A DNA stretch of 59,836 nt, taken from the IMG/VR virus record IMGVR_UViG_3300046791_000436, positions 1-59,836 of that record, one strand, 5' to 3'. Every line of letters starts with the position of its first letter. The stretch's first letter is position 1. A program made the position numbers and the translations under genes. This document shows positions 113 to 59,836 of the stretch, one piece after another. This stretch comes from a virus. Under the pieces are notes generated by a model that was not told where the DNA came from, searched no databases, and saw only the letters and a list, made by a program, of their open reading frames with translations.

Positions 113-127
113 ATGCTACAGATTCTG
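1..127. repeat. Left copy of 127-bp terminal direct repeat
   Basis: Identical base for base to the last 127 bases of the window (59710-59836). An overlap of exactly this size is typical of a circular contig cut at an arbitrary point by an assembler, so the molecule is probably circular or circularly permuted with a unit of 59,709 bp. The repeat ends inside the first gene, just after its start codon, so it is unlikely to be a biological terminal repeat. Confidence 0.95.
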
Positions 128-748
128 GTCGATCTTGGCGCTTGTGAAGAGGCGCGGATCTGGGCCAAGGACTACGCCGATCTTCAATCGGCGTGGGACA
201 AGTGCGAACGTGGCGATTGGATGCTCTGGCTTCTGCAGAGATCCAAGGACCCGGACCGCAAGAAGATCGTTCGCACGACCTGTGACATTGCCAGGACCGT
301 GTTGCATCTGATTCCTGCCAATGAGGACAGGCCACGTCTGGCGATCGAAGCAGCCGAAGGCTGGTGCGAAGGAAAGGTCTCGATCGAGACTGCCTACGCT
401 GCTGCCCGCGCTGCTGCCGACGCTGCCTATGCTGCCCGCGCTGCTGCCTATGCTGCTGCCGACGCTGCCGACGCTGCCGACGCTGCTGCTGCTGCCGACG
501 CTGCTGCCGACGCTGCTGCCTACGCTGCTGCCGACGCTGCCGACGCTGCTGCCGACGCTGCCGACGCTGCTGCTGCTGCCGACGCTGCTGCCGCTGCTGC
601 CTATGCTGCTGCCGACGCTGCCGACGCTGCCGACGCTGCTGCCGCTGCTGCCTATGCTGCTGCTGCTGCTGCTGCTGCCGCTGCTGCTTCTGGTTTGAAA
701 CAAGCACACATTGTGCGCAAGCACTTCCCCCTAGCACCGAGGTTCTGA
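113..748 (+). CDS. Imm5-like putative immunity-domain protein with alanine-rich repeat tail
   Basis: 211 residues. The start at 113 is preferred over an upstream ATG at 35 because GGAG (102-105) sits 7 nt before it. The N-terminal half resembles the Imm5 'putative immunity protein' domain (PF14423) found in many phages, including the typical stretch HLIPANEDRPRLAIEAAEGW. From about residue 95 the protein becomes an almost pure alanine repeat (Ala-Ala-Asp/Tyr-Ala units, nt 397-690), predicted to form one long helix, followed by a basic tail. What the domain does in phages is unknown. The repeat DNA is built from GCTGCC/GACGCTGCC units and is likely to vary in length. Its stop codon overlaps the next start (TGATG). 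Confidence 0.75.
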   Translation: MLQILVDLGACEEARIWAKDYADLQSAWDKCERGDWMLWLLQRSKDPDRKKIVRTTCDIARTVLHLIPANEDRPRLAIEAAEGWCEGKVSIETAYAAARAAADAAYAARAAAYAAADAADAADAAAAADAAADAAAYAAADAADAAADAADAAAAADAAAAAAYAAADAADAADAAAAAAYAAAAAAAAAAASGLKQAHIVRKHFPLAPRF

Positions 749-22591: not shown

Positions 22592-24587
22592 TCCCATCTG
22601 CCTTTCGATAGGCGATCCAGATGGAACGGGAGCCGTGATCGCATCGTGCGAATCAGGCTTCGACGATGCGATCGAGTTCGCGTGGAAGCAGGACGAGATC
22701 GTCATGGCGAACGGAGCGTTCGACTCGTGCGTGATCATCGCGCATCGGCCGAAGCTGGCGCCTCTGGTGTGGAAGGCCTACCGGGAGCGCCGCGTGGTCG
22801 ACATCCTGATCCGCGAACAGCTCAAGGTGCTCGGCGACACCGGTGACCTGACCTACGAGACCCTGCCCAACGGAGCGAAGAGCCGCCTGCTGTTCAACCA
22901 AGCGGCGCTCGAGGAGAAGTATCTTGGGATCAGCCGAGGCGAAGAGAAAGAAGAAGAAGACGGCTGGCGCAAGAACTACTCGTCGCTGGTCGGCATGAAG
23001 GCCAGCGACTACCCGAAGGATGCCTACGACTACAGCCTCAACGACTCCGTGAACGCGGCGAAGATCGCCAAGATGCAGCCGGTCAGCAAGGCCGAGTTCG
23101 TGCATGTGCGAGCTAGCCTTGCCCTCTACCTGAACAGCTGCTGGGGTTTCCCGATCGACAAAGCTACGGTCGACAAGTTGCTCGTCGAGATGACCGAACG
23201 GTTCGACGAGAAGAACTTCCCGCTGCTGCTGCAGACGGGGATCCTTCGTCCCGCCGAGCCGCCTCGAGCCTTCAAGAAGAACCCCGAGAAGACGACCAAA
23301 GGGAAGGCTGCAACCCTCAACTCCGAGATGCTGCGAGCGCACGTCGAACTGGTCAGCAACGAGTTCGACATCCCCACCAAGCTCACGGACGGCGGCGAGT
23401 CAGGAAAGCAGAAGGTCTCTTATAGCGATGAAGTTCAAGCCGATCTGAAGGGCCTGGATCCGACGTTCGACGAGTTCATCGCACGAAGCGAGATCCAGAA
23501 ACTGGTGACGACAGAGTTGCCTAGGCTGGTCGGCCATACTCGAGTGCATCCGAAATATCGGGCACTGAAAGAAACTGGTCGAAGTGCGAGTGCCGGAAAC
23601 AAAAAGACGGACAAGAACCCTCCCTACCCAGCGGTCCACATCCAAGGCGTCGACAAGCGCATCCGCCACGTCTACACCGCCGACCCAGGCCATGTGCTCT
23701 GCTCGATCGACTACAACTTCATCGAGCTGGTCTCAGCCGCGCAGAAGTGTCTCGATCTGTTCGACAAGTCCGTGCTGGCCGACACCATCAACGCCGGCAA
23801 GGACCCACACGCACACCTCGCGTCCGGCATCGCACGGAAGTTCGATCCGCAGTTCAAGTGGAGCAAGGACGACGAGGAGAACTATCAGCAGTTCATGCTG
23901 CTGAAGACCGCGGACAACGCCAAATACAAGCACTGGCGAAACCTGTCCAAGCCAACAGGACTCGGTTACTGGGGCGGTCTTGGCGACAAGAGATTCGTTG
24001 GCTACGCCAAGAAGGAGCCGTTCTTCGTCGATCTCGTCAAGATGACTGGCAGCATGGAAGGGGCGATCGAGATGGCGAAGTCCCTCAAGATCGGCTGGAA
24101 GGAAACCTACCCAGAGTCGACGGATTACTTCAACTGGATCAACAGCAGTTGCAAAGACCTAGACTGGTCCATGGCCGAAGAGGAACGCTACGCCTACGTC
24201 AGCCCGGCCGGGATGGTGCGCAGGAACTGCCATTTCACCGACGCTGCGAATGGTGCGGCTCTCCAGACCCCAACAGCAGAAGGCGCCAAAATCGCTCTGT
24301 TTTCTCTTGCAGAAGCACTTCACGATCCTACGATCGGCAGTTGTCTACTCGGCTGTCACATGCTTGCTTTCATCCACGATGAAGTGATCCTGCAGTTGCC
24401 GCTCGACGAGTTCGTTCACGAACGCGCGTTCGAAGCTGCGAGGATCATGAAAGAAGGGATGGCGGAAGTGATGACGAGGGTCAAGGTCGGAGCAGACCCA
24501 GCCCTGATGATGTCGTGGGACAAGCTGGCGGAAACAGTGTTCGACAACAACAACAGACTGACAGTATGGCTACCCAAGGTCGCATGA
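22536..24587 (+). CDS. polA: Family A DNA polymerase
   Basis: 683 residues with an N-terminal 3'-5' exonuclease. Exo I is FDFETF (Asp5, Glu7), Exo II ANGAFD (Asp63), Exo III YSLND (Tyr166, Asp170). Polymerase motif A is SIDYNFIEL (Asp392), where Asn-Phe replace the usual Ser-Gln. Motif B is RNLSKPTGLGYWGG (Arg468, Lys472). Motif C is IHDEV (His614-Asp615-Glu616). All catalytic carboxylates are present, so this should be the replicative polymerase with proofreading. The start is set by Exo I lying immediately after it. Confidence 0.92.
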   Translation: MTGFDFETFPFGPCNLAPDPICLSIGDPDGTGAVIASCESGFDDAIEFAWKQDEIVMANGAFDSCVIIAHRPKLAPLVWKAYRERRVVDILIREQLKVLGDTGDLTYETLPNGAKSRLLFNQAALEEKYLGISRGEEKEEEDGWRKNYSSLVGMKASDYPKDAYDYSLNDSVNAAKIAKMQPVSKAEFVHVRASLALYLNSCWGFPIDKATVDKLLVEMTERFDEKNFPLLLQTGILRPAEPPRAFKKNPEKTTKGKAATLNSEMLRAHVELVSNEFDIPTKLTDGGESGKQKVSYSDEVQADLKGLDPTFDEFIARSEIQKLVTTELPRLVGHTRVHPKYRALKETGRSASAGNKKTDKNPPYPAVHIQGVDKRIRHVYTADPGHVLCSIDYNFIELVSAAQKCLDLFDKSVLADTINAGKDPHAHLASGIARKFDPQFKWSKDDEENYQQFMLLKTADNAKYKHWRNLSKPTGLGYWGGLGDKRFVGYAKKEPFFVDLVKMTGSMEGAIEMAKSLKIGWKETYPESTDYFNWINSSCKDLDWSMAEEERYAYVSPAGMVRRNCHFTDAANGAALQTPTAEGAKIALFSLAEALHDPTIGSCLLGCHMLAFIHDEVILQLPLDEFVHERAFEAARIMKEGMAEVMTRVKVGADPALMMSWDKLAETVFDNNNRLTVWLPKVA

Positions 24588-36474: not shown

Positions 36475-39400
36475 TCTCCGCGACGTTTACCAACTCGACA
36501 TCCGAGGCAACTTTGCCGACGAGATGGATCGTCTGCAGATCGAGATCAACGAATCTCGTAGAGCCTGGGAACGTCTGGCCGACTCCTTCAGAGGAAGAGG
36601 AGCTGATCTCCGGACAGCGGACGAAGAACTAGAAGCAGCCGCACTGACTCTTGCCGGAGTAACGGATGGCGCAGTGCAGGCCAAGACAGAACTGCGGCAG
36701 CTGACCAGCGCAGAAAAGGCTCTGGCAAACGCCAGCAACCGATTGGTTGCCGAACAGAACGCACTGAATGAGACCCGCATCGTCGAGCTGCAAGTGCTCG
36801 ACCAGCTGCAGAAGCAAGCAGATCCCAGGATCATCGCAGCTCGGGCAGAAACCGCAGCACTGAAACGTCTCACCGCCGCTCTTACCGAAGAAGCCGCGCA
36901 GAGGATCTTCCAAGAGAAGGCCGCCGCCGCAGGCCTGCAGGTCAGTGCAGACGGGAAGCGCCTCTTCAACGCCGAAGCCATCGCAGCCGAACGCGCCGCC
37001 AAGGCCGTGCAGAAGTTGGCCATCGCGGAACAGCTTCGCCAACAGAACCGAGACGAGGCAGGAAACCTCTTCGCTGCTGTTCCCCAAGGCCCCGGCCTCT
37101 CTGGCAAGACCATCGATGCGGAAGCCAAGAAGCGCACGCCTGCGCAGGCAGCCCTTGCCGCGCAGCAAAAGAAGTTCTTCGACGAAGAACTGAAGCAACA
37201 GAAGACGCTTCTAGGGTTGCCTGATCCGTTCGTCGGAAAGCAGAAGACTCTCGCAGAAGTCACCAAGGAAGGAGCAAAGTCAGACGGAGTATTCAACCGA
37301 GTCTCGTTCACCTTCCGAAGACTGATCGGGATCATGGCCGCGTTTACCGTGGCTAGGATCGTGGTAGGCGGATTCAAAGACATGATCGTAGGAGCGATCA
37401 AGTTCAATGCAGCCATCGAGTCGACTCGAGTTGGTTTGACAGGCCTGATCACGGCTTCTGCAGAAGTTCGCGATCTGCAAGGCCAACGACTCTCTCTCGA
37501 TGAGCAGCTGAATCGAGCGCAGAACATCTCGATCCAGCAGATGGACAAGTTGAGAGCCAACGCATTGACCACGGCCGCTAGCTATGAGCAGCTCGCCGAA
37601 GCGTTCACGCAAGCCGTAGCTCCGGGGCTGACCGCCGGCCTGACGCTCGATCAGATCAGGAAGGTCACTACCGAAATCAGCCAGGCCGCCACAGGCCTTG
37701 GCGTGGCCCAGAACCAACTGTCCGAAGAGATCCGTTCCCTGTTCCAAGGCACCATCACACCGAGAAACACTCGCATCGCGACGGCCCTGGGAATCAACAA
37801 CGAAGACATCAGAAGAGCCAAGGAACTAGGAACCCTCTTCGATTTCCTGCAAGGTAGGTTTGCAGCTATCTCCGCTACTGGGCAGCGCCTGATGAACACG
37901 TTCACAGGCCAACTGTCGAATGCTGCTGACGCCTTTCAGCAGCTTCTGGCCACCACAAGTAGACCCCTTTTCGAGCAACTCAAAGGAGGTCTAGCTGATC
38001 TGCAGAAAGGCATTTTCAATGTTGTAAACGAACAAGCAATCTTCAAACCCGAAGCTGTCAACGTATTCAAAGGCCTATTCGAAGGTCTTGCCAGAGGAGC
38101 AGAAGGGGTTCGTAGGGCTTTTCAAGCCATCAATATCCGAGGCTTGTCAGACAGTCTCGGTCTGGTAGGGGAAGTTCTTGGAACAGCAGCTACTGCCATA
38201 GCAAAAGCCTTCTCAACCTTCTTCACTATCGCCGCTCCCTCTGTCACACTGCTAAAAACAGTCTTCGCTCTTCTTACAGCGATCGTGAACATAGGAGGAG
38301 TGCTAGATAAGGTCTTCCTAGGATTCCCATCGACTTTCGTTTCTCTCGCAGGAAAGCTGACCTTCTTCTTGTTCACCATGAACAAGGTGAAAGCCGTTGT
38401 CCTCTTGATCGGCAAGGCCTTTCAGACCGTCGCAAGAATTATGGCTCTGGGACAGAAGGCCACTCTTCTCCTGGTCACGGCGACCACGAGCTGGGGAAAG
38501 GCTGTCGCCTTCGTTCGCGTGAATCTCCTGAAACTGCTGCTCCCCTTGTTAGCTGTGGCAGCGGCCTTCACTCTGATCACCAAACTGCTGCCGGAGCAAA
38601 CCACAGAAAAACTCTTCGATGGCATTGGAAACGCCATCAACTTCCTTCTCGAGGGAGTCGACAAAGTCTTCGATCGAATCGTCAAGCTGCCTGAAGAGGC
38701 CAAGAACGCTACCAAGGAAGGCCTCGGCATTCTGGTCAACCAGCTCAAGGAGCTAACAGCCGACCTAGCCGATGTCTCCAAGACCCTGAAAGACGAACTC
38801 CGCTCCTTCGCAAATCAAGGGATAGCTTCCGATGCAACCTTCGGTCTCTCTTCGGAACAAGAAGCCAGGACGAGACAATTCTTCGCTACCTATCACAAGG
38901 GAATCGAAGACGCAGAAAAAGCACTAGAGCAGCAGTTGGCTATAGAAAAACAGGTAAAGGAGTTGGAAGAAAAGAGAACCAAACTCCAGAAAGAGTCTGC
39001 GACCCTCAACGCTTCTAACGCCCCCATCATAGCTGCAGAAAGAGCAGCACAACAACAGCTGCTCTCCATCCAGACCAAGCTGAACAAAGCGAGGAAAGAA
39101 CTAGAGGCCTCCCAAACCACAGGCATCCCGATAGCTCTGCCTCTCCTCTCCGAAAACAAAGCCCTATCCGAAAAGATCAAGAAACTGGAGCAAGAAGAAG
39201 CGACAGCCAAAACCATTCTGAACATCCGAAGAGAGTCCCTGAAACTCACCAACGACGAAACGGCGGTGAACAAGGATCTTAAGACCACTTCAGAACAGAT
39301 CTTGTCGCTGCAAGAGCAGGTCAACGAATCCAACAGAATCAGAGTAGAGTTGGCAGACAAGGCCCTTGCTAATGCCATCGCAGAAGAAGGCATAGCCGCT

Positions 39401-56457: not shown

Positions 56458-57013
56458 CAGGCTCGTTTACCTTCAGGCGCAAGACACAATTAGCTCCCTG
56501 GACTGGGTTTGGGACTGAAATCGCGACTCATTACGGTTCTCAGTCTATCCCGCGAGGTCGAGTTAATATTGTATTGCTAGGACTTAGCCCCTTACCAGGA
56601 CTGGACTTAGGTCTGCTGAGAGGGGGGGTCTGTCCGTTAGAAGTTCTACCTCTGTTTTACCGGGAGGTGGGACCGACCCCGAGTAAGGGTCAACTCTAAA
56701 AATAGGGGGTTGACTAACCGGCAGGATCTAGGTCCGGTTTTAACGTAGTCCCTCTGGGTCACAAGTAGCAATAAAACTGAGTTGAAACTTTTTACTGCAA
56801 CTTGCTCTCATCCTCTCCCCAACTACACGGCCGCCAAACGACTTACCGCAGGTAAAATGGACGGCTGTCAGTAGTAAAGAGACCACCTCAAGATTTGATG
56901 AAGACCGTGCGTTTCGGCATTTATTCGGATAATGCCAGACTTCGACCCTTCGTCTAAAACAATTCTCGTTCGTCTACTCCTACCGTGCCAGTGGCACAGG
57001 ACTTGCTACAGAA

Positions 57014-58244: not shown

Positions 58245-58355
58245 CCCACCGCTCCCGACGGGGACGAGCTGCCATGAGCGGCCTCAACACAGCAAGCCGG
58301 TCCCAAGCCCGGCAACGGACTCACCTCGAGTTCGGATGTGGAGGGAGGCAAACCC

Positions 58356-58463
58356 ATGATCTACTTGAAGCGCCTGCCCAACGGCAGGTTTGCCAAGGCT
58401 CGCCGCCCCTACAAGGGCGAGCTGATCCTCGGCCTGCTGCTGATCCTGGCCCTGGTGCTCTGA
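58356..58463 (+). CDS. Single-pass membrane mini-protein, 35 aa
   Basis: GGAGGGAGG upstream. Basic start (MIYLKRLPNGRFAKARRPYK) then a Leu-rich segment (LILGLLLILALVL). Topology N-in by the positive-inside rule. Confidence 0.6.
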   Translation: MIYLKRLPNGRFAKARRPYKGELILGLLLILALVL

Positions 58464-58525
58464 TGCACGAGGACCACGATCAAGACCACGACCACGACCG
58501 CTGGACAAACGAGGGCGGCCGGTGA
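58463..58525 (+). CDS. Possible His/Asp-rich micropeptide, 20 aa
   Basis: Lies exactly between two stop-start overlaps (TGATG before, GTGA after). MHEDHDQDHDHDRW is metal-binding in appearance. No ribosome binding site of its own; too short for certainty. Confidence 0.3.
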   Translation: MHEDHDQDHDHDRWTNEGGR

Positions 58526-58734
58526 CCGTCTCCTACAAGCCTGAAGTCCAGGCCGACGACACAGGGACCTGGACTGGCAACGCTCTGCGCTTCGCCACCA
58601 AGGAAGAAGCAGAGACCTACGTCAGCGATCTCCAGGCCCGTTGGATGCTCGTGCGCGCGACCCGTGTCGTGCAATCGGAGGACCCGGTAAACTACCGCTG
58701 GACCGACCACGGCATCGAAGCGATCAAGCCATGA
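58522..58734 (+). CDS. Conserved small phage protein ('YKPEVQADDTGTWTGNALRF' type), 70 aa, GTG start
   Basis: GTGA overlap with the frame before. Recognised from many phages by 'PEV.aD.tGkW.gN.lRFat.eEAe.Yv.dL..RW..Vr.tRV' and 'dPVNYRW', all present here. Function unknown. Confidence 0.8.
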   Translation: MTVSYKPEVQADDTGTWTGNALRFATKEEAETYVSDLQARWMLVRATRVVQSEDPVNYRWTDHGIEAIKP

Positions 58735-58937
58735 CCGACGAACCAACCGAGACCTACGCCCGCGTCGTCGAGCAGGGACTGGCCTTGCAACAGCAGGCAG
58801 CCAAGATCCTCGAGATCTGTGGCATCCACTACGACAACCTGATCGCCGGCCACCACCGGCTCAGGACCGTCGCTGACCTTCTGGGCGAAGCGCGGGAAAG
58901 CCTGCGCAAAGCCCGTGCTTGGCTCCCAACCAACTGA
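58731..58937 (+). CDS. Hypothetical helical protein, 68 aa
   Basis: ATGA overlap. Heptad-like helices (YARVVEQGLALQQQAAKILE; LRTVADLLGEARESLRKARA). Coiled-coil partner of another small protein possible. Confidence 0.65.
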   Translation: MTDEPTETYARVVEQGLALQQQAAKILEICGIHYDNLIAGHHRLRTVADLLGEARESLRKARAWLPTN

Positions 58938-58943
58938 GGACCC

Positions 58944-59123
58944 ATGGACTGCCCCCGCTGCGGCCTGCCCATCAGCACGCAACACGCCTGCTGGGAGTGC
59001 AGGCCGGTCTTCGTTCGCCCGCCGCGACTCAACTTCGCTCGCAAGCGCGAGGCTTGGAAGACCGAACTGGTCTTGACGTGCCTCGCCATGGCCTGTCTGA
59101 TCGCACTCGCAATCTGGGGCTGA
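58944..59123 (+). CDS. Zinc-knuckle membrane protein, 59 aa
   Basis: GAGGA before the ATG. CPRCGLP...HACWECR is a CxxC...CxxC knuckle, and the C-terminus is one membrane segment (LVLTCLAMACLIALAIWG). Last coding gene before the large RNA candidate. Confidence 0.65.
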   Translation: MDCPRCGLPISTQHACWECRPVFVRPPRLNFARKREAWKTELVLTCLAMACLIALAIWG

Positions 59124-59836
59124 TCCAGAAAAACCCGGAGGATGCCATGTAGCAGTCCTACTCAAAAGCGAAAGACTCAAATACTCGCTTTTGGCGGCCT
59201 AGCGAGCCGTCAGCCGTGAACCAGGACCTTCGAAAGATGCAGGAAAAGAAAGCGCCGGCTCGGCGCTAGAACACAAATGCGAGCACTCGCCGGGTAGCTG
59301 AGGCGCCCGGCACGTTTATCCCAGCCAGTGGAACCGCCGCAGATCCGAGTAGCCCTCGGAAACAGGACGGGAAAGCTGAAGGTCTCAAGCCCTTGTAAAT
59401 TGGAGAGAGGACGTGCCTGCGGTAATCGATCTAACGTGGATCGGTAGCTCATTTCCAACCTAAGAAACTGGTTGCGACACAAGAGCGGTGTCAGCAGGTG
59501 TCCTAATGCGGCCCTCGAGGACTCGTGAGATACTCGGGGACGGTGACAAGCCCGTAAAACGTCCGGCCCGCGGGGTGACGAAAACGCAGAGTCAGGACAA
59601 GCCCTCGGTGAACGGCAAAGTTTCCGTAAGCCGGATCGGGATCTTCGCAAGCAACTGGACCATGCCTACCGGCTACAGAAAGGTTGCCCAAGTCGACCGG
59701 TCTCGAATGTCTCCCGAAAGCAGTCCCTAAGAAGGCGCATGTATTGGAGCGTCGATGGGATCTCCCAATGCAGCCAACGACGGTGGTAAGCCCGTGCGTA
59801 ATGCAGAACCGGAGAAAAGACATGCTACAGATTCTG
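59124..59836 (+). ncRNA. Candidate large structured RNA, part before the circle junction (continues at 1-112)
   Basis: No convincing gene lies between the stop codon at 59123 and the start at 113 past the junction, about 700 nt. The stretch is full of short GC-rich helices separated by A-rich loops. Examples: 59163-59170 with 59186-59193 (8 bp); 59200-59209 with 59256-59268; 59290-59294 with 59306-59310; 59427-59431 with 59439-59443; 59456-59460 with 59470-59474; 59476-59480 with 59488-59492. This is the style of large phage RNAs such as GOLLD or ROOL, and the length fits, but I cannot match it to either. Group I/II intron cores, RNase P and tmRNA signatures were looked for and not found. Strand is inferred from the flanking genes. 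Confidence 0.5.
59710..59836. repeat. Right copy of 127-bp terminal direct repeat
   Basis: Second copy of bases 1-127. Features near the end of the window continue directly at base 128 of the window start; in particular the structured RNA candidate spans this junction. Confidence 0.95.

Follow-up and report, generated by a model that had tools for sequence, protein, structure and literature searches.

Predicted type-P1 twister ribozymes in tandem within a gene-free region of a phage genome

What does a phage genome hold in about 700 nt that encode no protein? The question is raised by one viral record (IMGVR_UViG_3300046791_000436, 59,836 nt; the whole of it was analysed and is called the window below), for which an earlier note described a gene-free, helix-dense region running from 59124 across the circle junction to base 112, and proposed a giant phage RNA of the GOLLD or ROOL kind. 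The absence of genes was borne out. The window begins and ends with the same 127 bases; the circle junction is accordingly real, and the gap continuous at the right end of the window. The last gene before the gap (ATG 58944, Shine-Dalgarno sequence (SD) GAGG) has its stop at 59123, and the next gene starts at ATG 59822, which is the same as 113. The longest open reading frames (ORFs) of the gap, 59210-59650 (-), 59503-59823 (-) and 59488-59730 (+), have codon-usage scores of -0.53, -0.40 and -0.15 bits per codon, respectively, and a coding reading of them was rejected on these negative values. The flanking genes, in contrast, score from +0.12 to +0.59, and all flanking small ORFs are positive; the gap is thus real. 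At the start of the leader, 59137-59152 (+) reads GGAGG and, 5 nt on, AUGUAG, a start codon directly before a stop.

We analysed the region for known RNA families. As the earlier note had suggested, it was scanned against Rfam. No match was found in the region at the gathering cut-offs; an E-value search of the stretch, however, gave three matches in tandem, all to the type-P1 twister ribozyme (RF03160, clan CL00120), at 59313-59413 (+, E 4.7e-6), 59500-59597 (+, E 1.3e-4) and 59762-59814 (+, E 1.8e-3). Searching the whole window added a fourth, at 58281-58349 (29.0 bits, E 0.036). We call the matches T0 (58281-58349), T1, T2 and T3 in the order of their positions; T0 lies about 1 kb upstream of the gap and the other three within it (Table 1). 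Their Rfam scores of 27 to 36 bits (27.3 for T3) are all below the twister-P1 gathering score of 67.2 bits, which is why the default scan is empty. That score is a curation threshold, not a feature of the structure: of 50 phage records that carry a strict-consensus twister, 46 miss it and 4 pass, and it hides most phage twisters from default annotation.

For a second line of evidence we used a held-out covariance model, built from 30 of the 64 IMG/VR viral stretches that matched a strict consensus pattern scan and including no sequence of this window. Run on the full window, it found T3 (E 5.7e-15, 47.6 bits), T2 (E 7e-8), T0 (E 1.7e-5, 22.4 bits) and T1 (E 3.1e-4, 19 bits), all on the + strand, and no further site below E 0.04. 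The next-best site, at 39363 (E 0.041), was rejected, being inside a gene and lacking the L4 loop; a site at 24360 from a descriptor scan was also rejected as lying inside a gene. A second stretch without a good gene, of lower GC, occupies 56700-56984 and contains a weak twister-like site (56734-56790; E 0.69 with the held-out model), which was rejected for want of a pseudoknot. Rfam gave no match to other ribozyme classes in the region at E <= 10. We regard it as nearly certain that T0 to T3 are twister ribozymes.

Table 1. Features of the region. Positions beyond the junction are also given from base 1 of the window.
Feature	Position	Strand	Description	Basis
T0	58278-58352	+	twister-P1 with inserted P5 hairpin; predicted cut between C58285 and A58286; pseudoknot CCC/GGG	RF03160 and held-out model; P1, P2, P4 and pseudoknot pairing
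SD of 35-aa ORF	58340-58348	+	GGAGGGAGG; ATG 58356, spacing 7 nt; coincides with T0 pseudoknot half and P1 3' strand	sequence, ORF and SD scan
Four small genes	58356-59123	+	58356-58463, 58522-58734, 58731-58937 and 58944-59123, between the T0 and T1 cuts	positive codon-usage scores
Gene-free region	59124-59821	+	59821 is base 112 past the junction	ORFs, codon usage
Hairpin	59289-59311	+	7 bp, GCCGGG..CCCGGC; 3' arm stops 6 nt short of the T1 cut	
T1	59310-59416	+	twister-P1 with long P1 (GGCACGUU/GACGUGCC) and long P3 arm; predicted cut between U59317 and A59318; pseudoknot CUC/GAG	
Spacer 1 (T1-T2)	59408-59504	+	cloverleaf-like: closing stem CCUGC/GCAGG and three hairpins	z -3.9
T2	59497-59601	+	twister-P1 with P1 to P5; predicted cut between U59504 and A59505; pseudoknot GAC/GUC	
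Spacer 2	59602-59758	+	no recognisable structure beyond chance	z about 0
T3	59759-59817 (50-108)	+	minimal twister-P1; predicted cut between C59766 and A59767; pseudoknot GGU/ACC	
SD of gene at ATG 59822 (113)	59811-59814	+	GGAG, spacing 7 nt; fully within T3 P1 3' strand (UCUCC/GGAGA)	sequence, SD scan
Gene 3' of T3	113-748	+	211-aa protein with long Ala-rich tract	

The anatomy of the copies follows the type-P1 consensus core (RF03160), in which P3 and P5 are optional. P1, P2 and P4 are fully paired in all copies, with the exception of one P2 mismatch in T1. The pseudoknot between L4 and L1 builds the twister active site. All 12 of its 12 pairs are Watson-Crick complementary across the four copies, which use four different sequences; in the phage set, 156 of 156 pairs are formed in eight sequence types, and covariation of the whole twister structure is 0.479 against 0.123 for shuffles. 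The GC in L2 that forms half of a second pseudoknot, the AAGC in L4 and the A 3' of the cut, all features of twisters (PMC5408937), are present in this window's copies. T1 and T2 have a U 5' of the cut, T0 and T3 a C; this base is less conserved according to the same review (PMC5408937). Minimum-energy folding returned the nested twister stems of T1 (z -2.6) and P1 to P5 of T2, both unprompted. Besides their sub-threshold scores, the copies differ from the family in the P5 hairpins inserted in T0 and T2 and in T1, the weakest copy, which has UAU in place of UAA, a departure at the second base 3' of the cut, and a P3 arm of 52 nt (59327-59378, +). This arm is unusually long and has purine-rich internal loops; it could contain a site through which a bound ligand or RNA controls cleavage.

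The low scores of T0 (22 bits) and T1 (19 bits), together with the core departures in T1, might suggest that the copies are relics that have drifted and lost their function. However, all four keep compensated pseudoknots of differing sequence, the A of the cleavage site and the AAGC of L4, and the score of T3 is high. In addition, there are no recent direct repeats among the copies, indicating that their cores have been kept over a long divergence. We consider decay to relics very improbable, and judge that at least T2 and T3 very likely cut.

Does the gap nevertheless form one large molecule? GOLLD (RF02032) and ROOL (RF03087) are likewise phage-borne, non-coding and hundreds of nucleotides long, and a single ornate RNA, of their kind or of a new giant family, in which the twister parts serve as architecture only, would suit a non-coding phage region of some 700 nt; spacer 1 also folds better than its shuffles. 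However, neither family matched the region at E <= 10, although for ROOL the positive-control genomes in the search were also without a match. tRNA genes are frequent neighbours of GOLLD and ROOL (PMC12286853), and the window has no tRNA gene and hence no tRNA island. The helices noted by eye can be drawn, but their density is not borne out statistically: against dinucleotide shuffles, the whole gap has a minimum-energy z of -0.5 to -0.8, less than one standard deviation away, while adjoining coding windows reach -4.8. No excess structure is seen in spacer 2 or in the initial 189 nt. Moreover, intact catalytic cores would be expected to cut such a molecule into pieces. The gap therefore does hold structured non-coding RNA, as the earlier note proposed, in the form of ribozymes whose parts covary, and not as a single giant RNA: with high confidence, it holds three tandem twisters, and one folded giant is far less credible.

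Even less credible is a DNA element, such as an origin or a packaging site, with hairpins arising by chance. The stretch is gene-free and separates two blocks of genes, as might be expected of such an element, but no iterons were found, the skew has no clear switch at this position, and strand-specific RNA features account for the conserved parts.

To place the twisters in context, we surveyed 50 whole IMG/VR viral contigs with a twister. In 17 of the 50, two to four twister-P1 matches occur, nearly always on the same strand, and in some contigs pistol, twister-P5 or RAGATH RNAs are found among them. Phage twisters lie mostly between consecutive genes. An SD and a start codon (ORF of at least 30 aa) follow within about 60 nt 3' of the twister in 48 of 73 distinct twisters, against 20% of random positions, the phages being unweighted for kinship. 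On the other side, a hairpin of at least 6 pairs has its 3' arm ending at most 12 nt (typically 3-6 nt) 5' of the cut in 46 of 72 cases, against 9% of random positions, again with phages unweighted for kinship; in bins further upstream such hairpins occur at 6-12%, and an energy test gave p = 1e-7. A layout of hairpin, twister and ribosome-binding site with start codon is thus common to many phage twisters among the IMG/VR loci L006-L090, and it makes transcript processing directly testable. We found no description of this layout in searchable open papers, a search that did not extend to the original twister reports. In the present phage, T1 has such a hairpin (7 bp, 6 nt from the cut), T0 a weak case of it (5 bp, 3 nt) and T3 none.

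These observations suggest how the region may work. The twister consensus, the pairing of P1, P2 and P4, the covarying pseudoknot, and the strand, position and ribosome-site overlap of the copies directly support a reading in which the region is probably part of a four-copy type-P1 twister array for RNA processing on the + strand, and point, with slightly less assurance, to transcript processing as its role. A rightward transcript would run through the junction, and each twister would fold and cut itself as the RNA is made, at up to four places (the predicted cuts of Table 1). Cutting would release an upstream message severed 5' of the 35-aa gene; a message of 1032 nt (58286-59317, about 1.03 kb) with the four small genes, whose 3' end would lie 6 nt past a strong hairpin; two non-coding RNAs, of 187 nt (59318-59504) and 262 nt (59505-59766); and a downstream message. 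Cleavage would then set the stability or the translation of the messages. No sigma-70 promoter or + strand intrinsic terminator was recognised in the region.

The overlap of T0 and T3 with ribosome-binding sites suggests one way in which translation could be affected. Uncut, either twister would mask the site at which ribosomes bind to the following gene, and cleavage would expose it; at T3 the SD would become accessible when the 5' strand of P1 departs. In this way, cleavage may induce translation of both genes (ATG 58356 and ATG 113). In the survey, however, an overlap of SD and P1 3' strand occurs in only 8 of 73 phage twisters (phages unweighted for kinship), so SD unmasking is not a general rule, and although it may be a selected function, we lean against this.

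It is also conceivable that the array mainly makes small RNAs, with T1 and T2 freeing the 187-nt structured RNA, perhaps as a circle closed by an RtcB-type ligase; circular RNAs flanked by twisters have an engineered precedent. At the ends of this piece, pairing is possible between GUCC of the T2 P1 5' strand and GGAC of the T1 P1 3' strand, both P1 remnants are paired in its minimum-energy fold, and the T1-T3 interval is without a gene, unlike that of most phage twister pairs. Inside the piece, the closing stem of spacer 1 ends about 6 nt 5' of the T2 cut. However, the paired ends are shifted by one base from the register that religation in T1's own active site would need, and for this reason such religation of the piece was not adopted. 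The T1 P1 is also strong (8 bp), and its 5' strand may stay bound; coding windows attain equal z values; and no homologue and no second sequence of spacer 1 was found. We therefore think it improbable that small RNAs are the main product, and retain transcript processing as the likelier role.

A broader proposal is that phage twisters are a message-finishing device, an RNA-only terminator combined with a processing site, in which the hairpin caps the upstream 3' end, the cut separates genes and P1 sometimes masks an SD. The present locus would be an extreme case, in which two small RNAs, perhaps circular, are freed as well. We offer this as speculation that is, on the whole, unlikely to hold. 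For the purpose of phage-borne self-cleaving ribozymes the locus provides a compact test, with four ribozymes whose cuts are predictable and two of which overlap ribosome-binding sites.

The earlier note had also called for homologues, and none of the whole 700-nt region came to light. The region had no blastn match in phages or plasmids, and T0 had none in phages. Relatives were not found through the neighbouring gene 997-1443, nor in viral contigs through the DNA polymerase; the protease led to fragments only, at 38%, and the capsid to relatives at 40-61%. The five records related through the capsid, mostly fragments, lack both twisters and the gene downstream of T3, so the search yielded no syntenic counterpart of the 700 nt.

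Clusters of ribozymes in phages are already known. Tandem hammerheads occur in phage-like bacterial operons, where native polycistronic RNA is cut in vitro and, for one triple array, in vivo as well (PMC3088659). A 2023 paper describes hammerhead and twister ribozymes of bacteria as enriched around Mu-like phage genes and around one another, the reasons being given as unknown; their neighbourhoods include pistol, hatchet, twister-sister and RAGATH RNAs (PMC10085705). The present array resembles these clusters (PMC3088659, PMC10085705), and the pairs and quartets in other IMG/VR phages, in that a phage transcript carries several ribozymes on the same strand. It differs in having three copies in 505 nt without an intervening gene, where other phages usually have one. 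The HHphage hammerhead of haloviruses HF1/HF2 (PMC3088659) is likewise directly followed, at 13 nt, by a phage start codon, but belongs to a different ribozyme class, whereas in T0 and T3 the SD itself is a P1 strand. The interest here lies, then, in the tight non-coding array and in the hairpin-twister-gene layout.

The tight gene-free spacing is unusual among the surveyed phages, although not unique. At L033:4577-4762 (-), two twisters stand 128 nt apart, each after a near-identical hairpin of the type CAGAAGGGC..GCCCUUCUG or its 3' arm. The closest analogue of the non-coding array is L087:1071-1532 (+), where a twister, a RAGATH-16 RNA and a second twister follow one another with no intervening ORF of 50 aa.

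The protein encoded 3' of T3 has no Pfam match. About 100 of its residues are Ala-rich repeats (YAAADAADAA), which appear in the DNA as GCC/GCT repeats.
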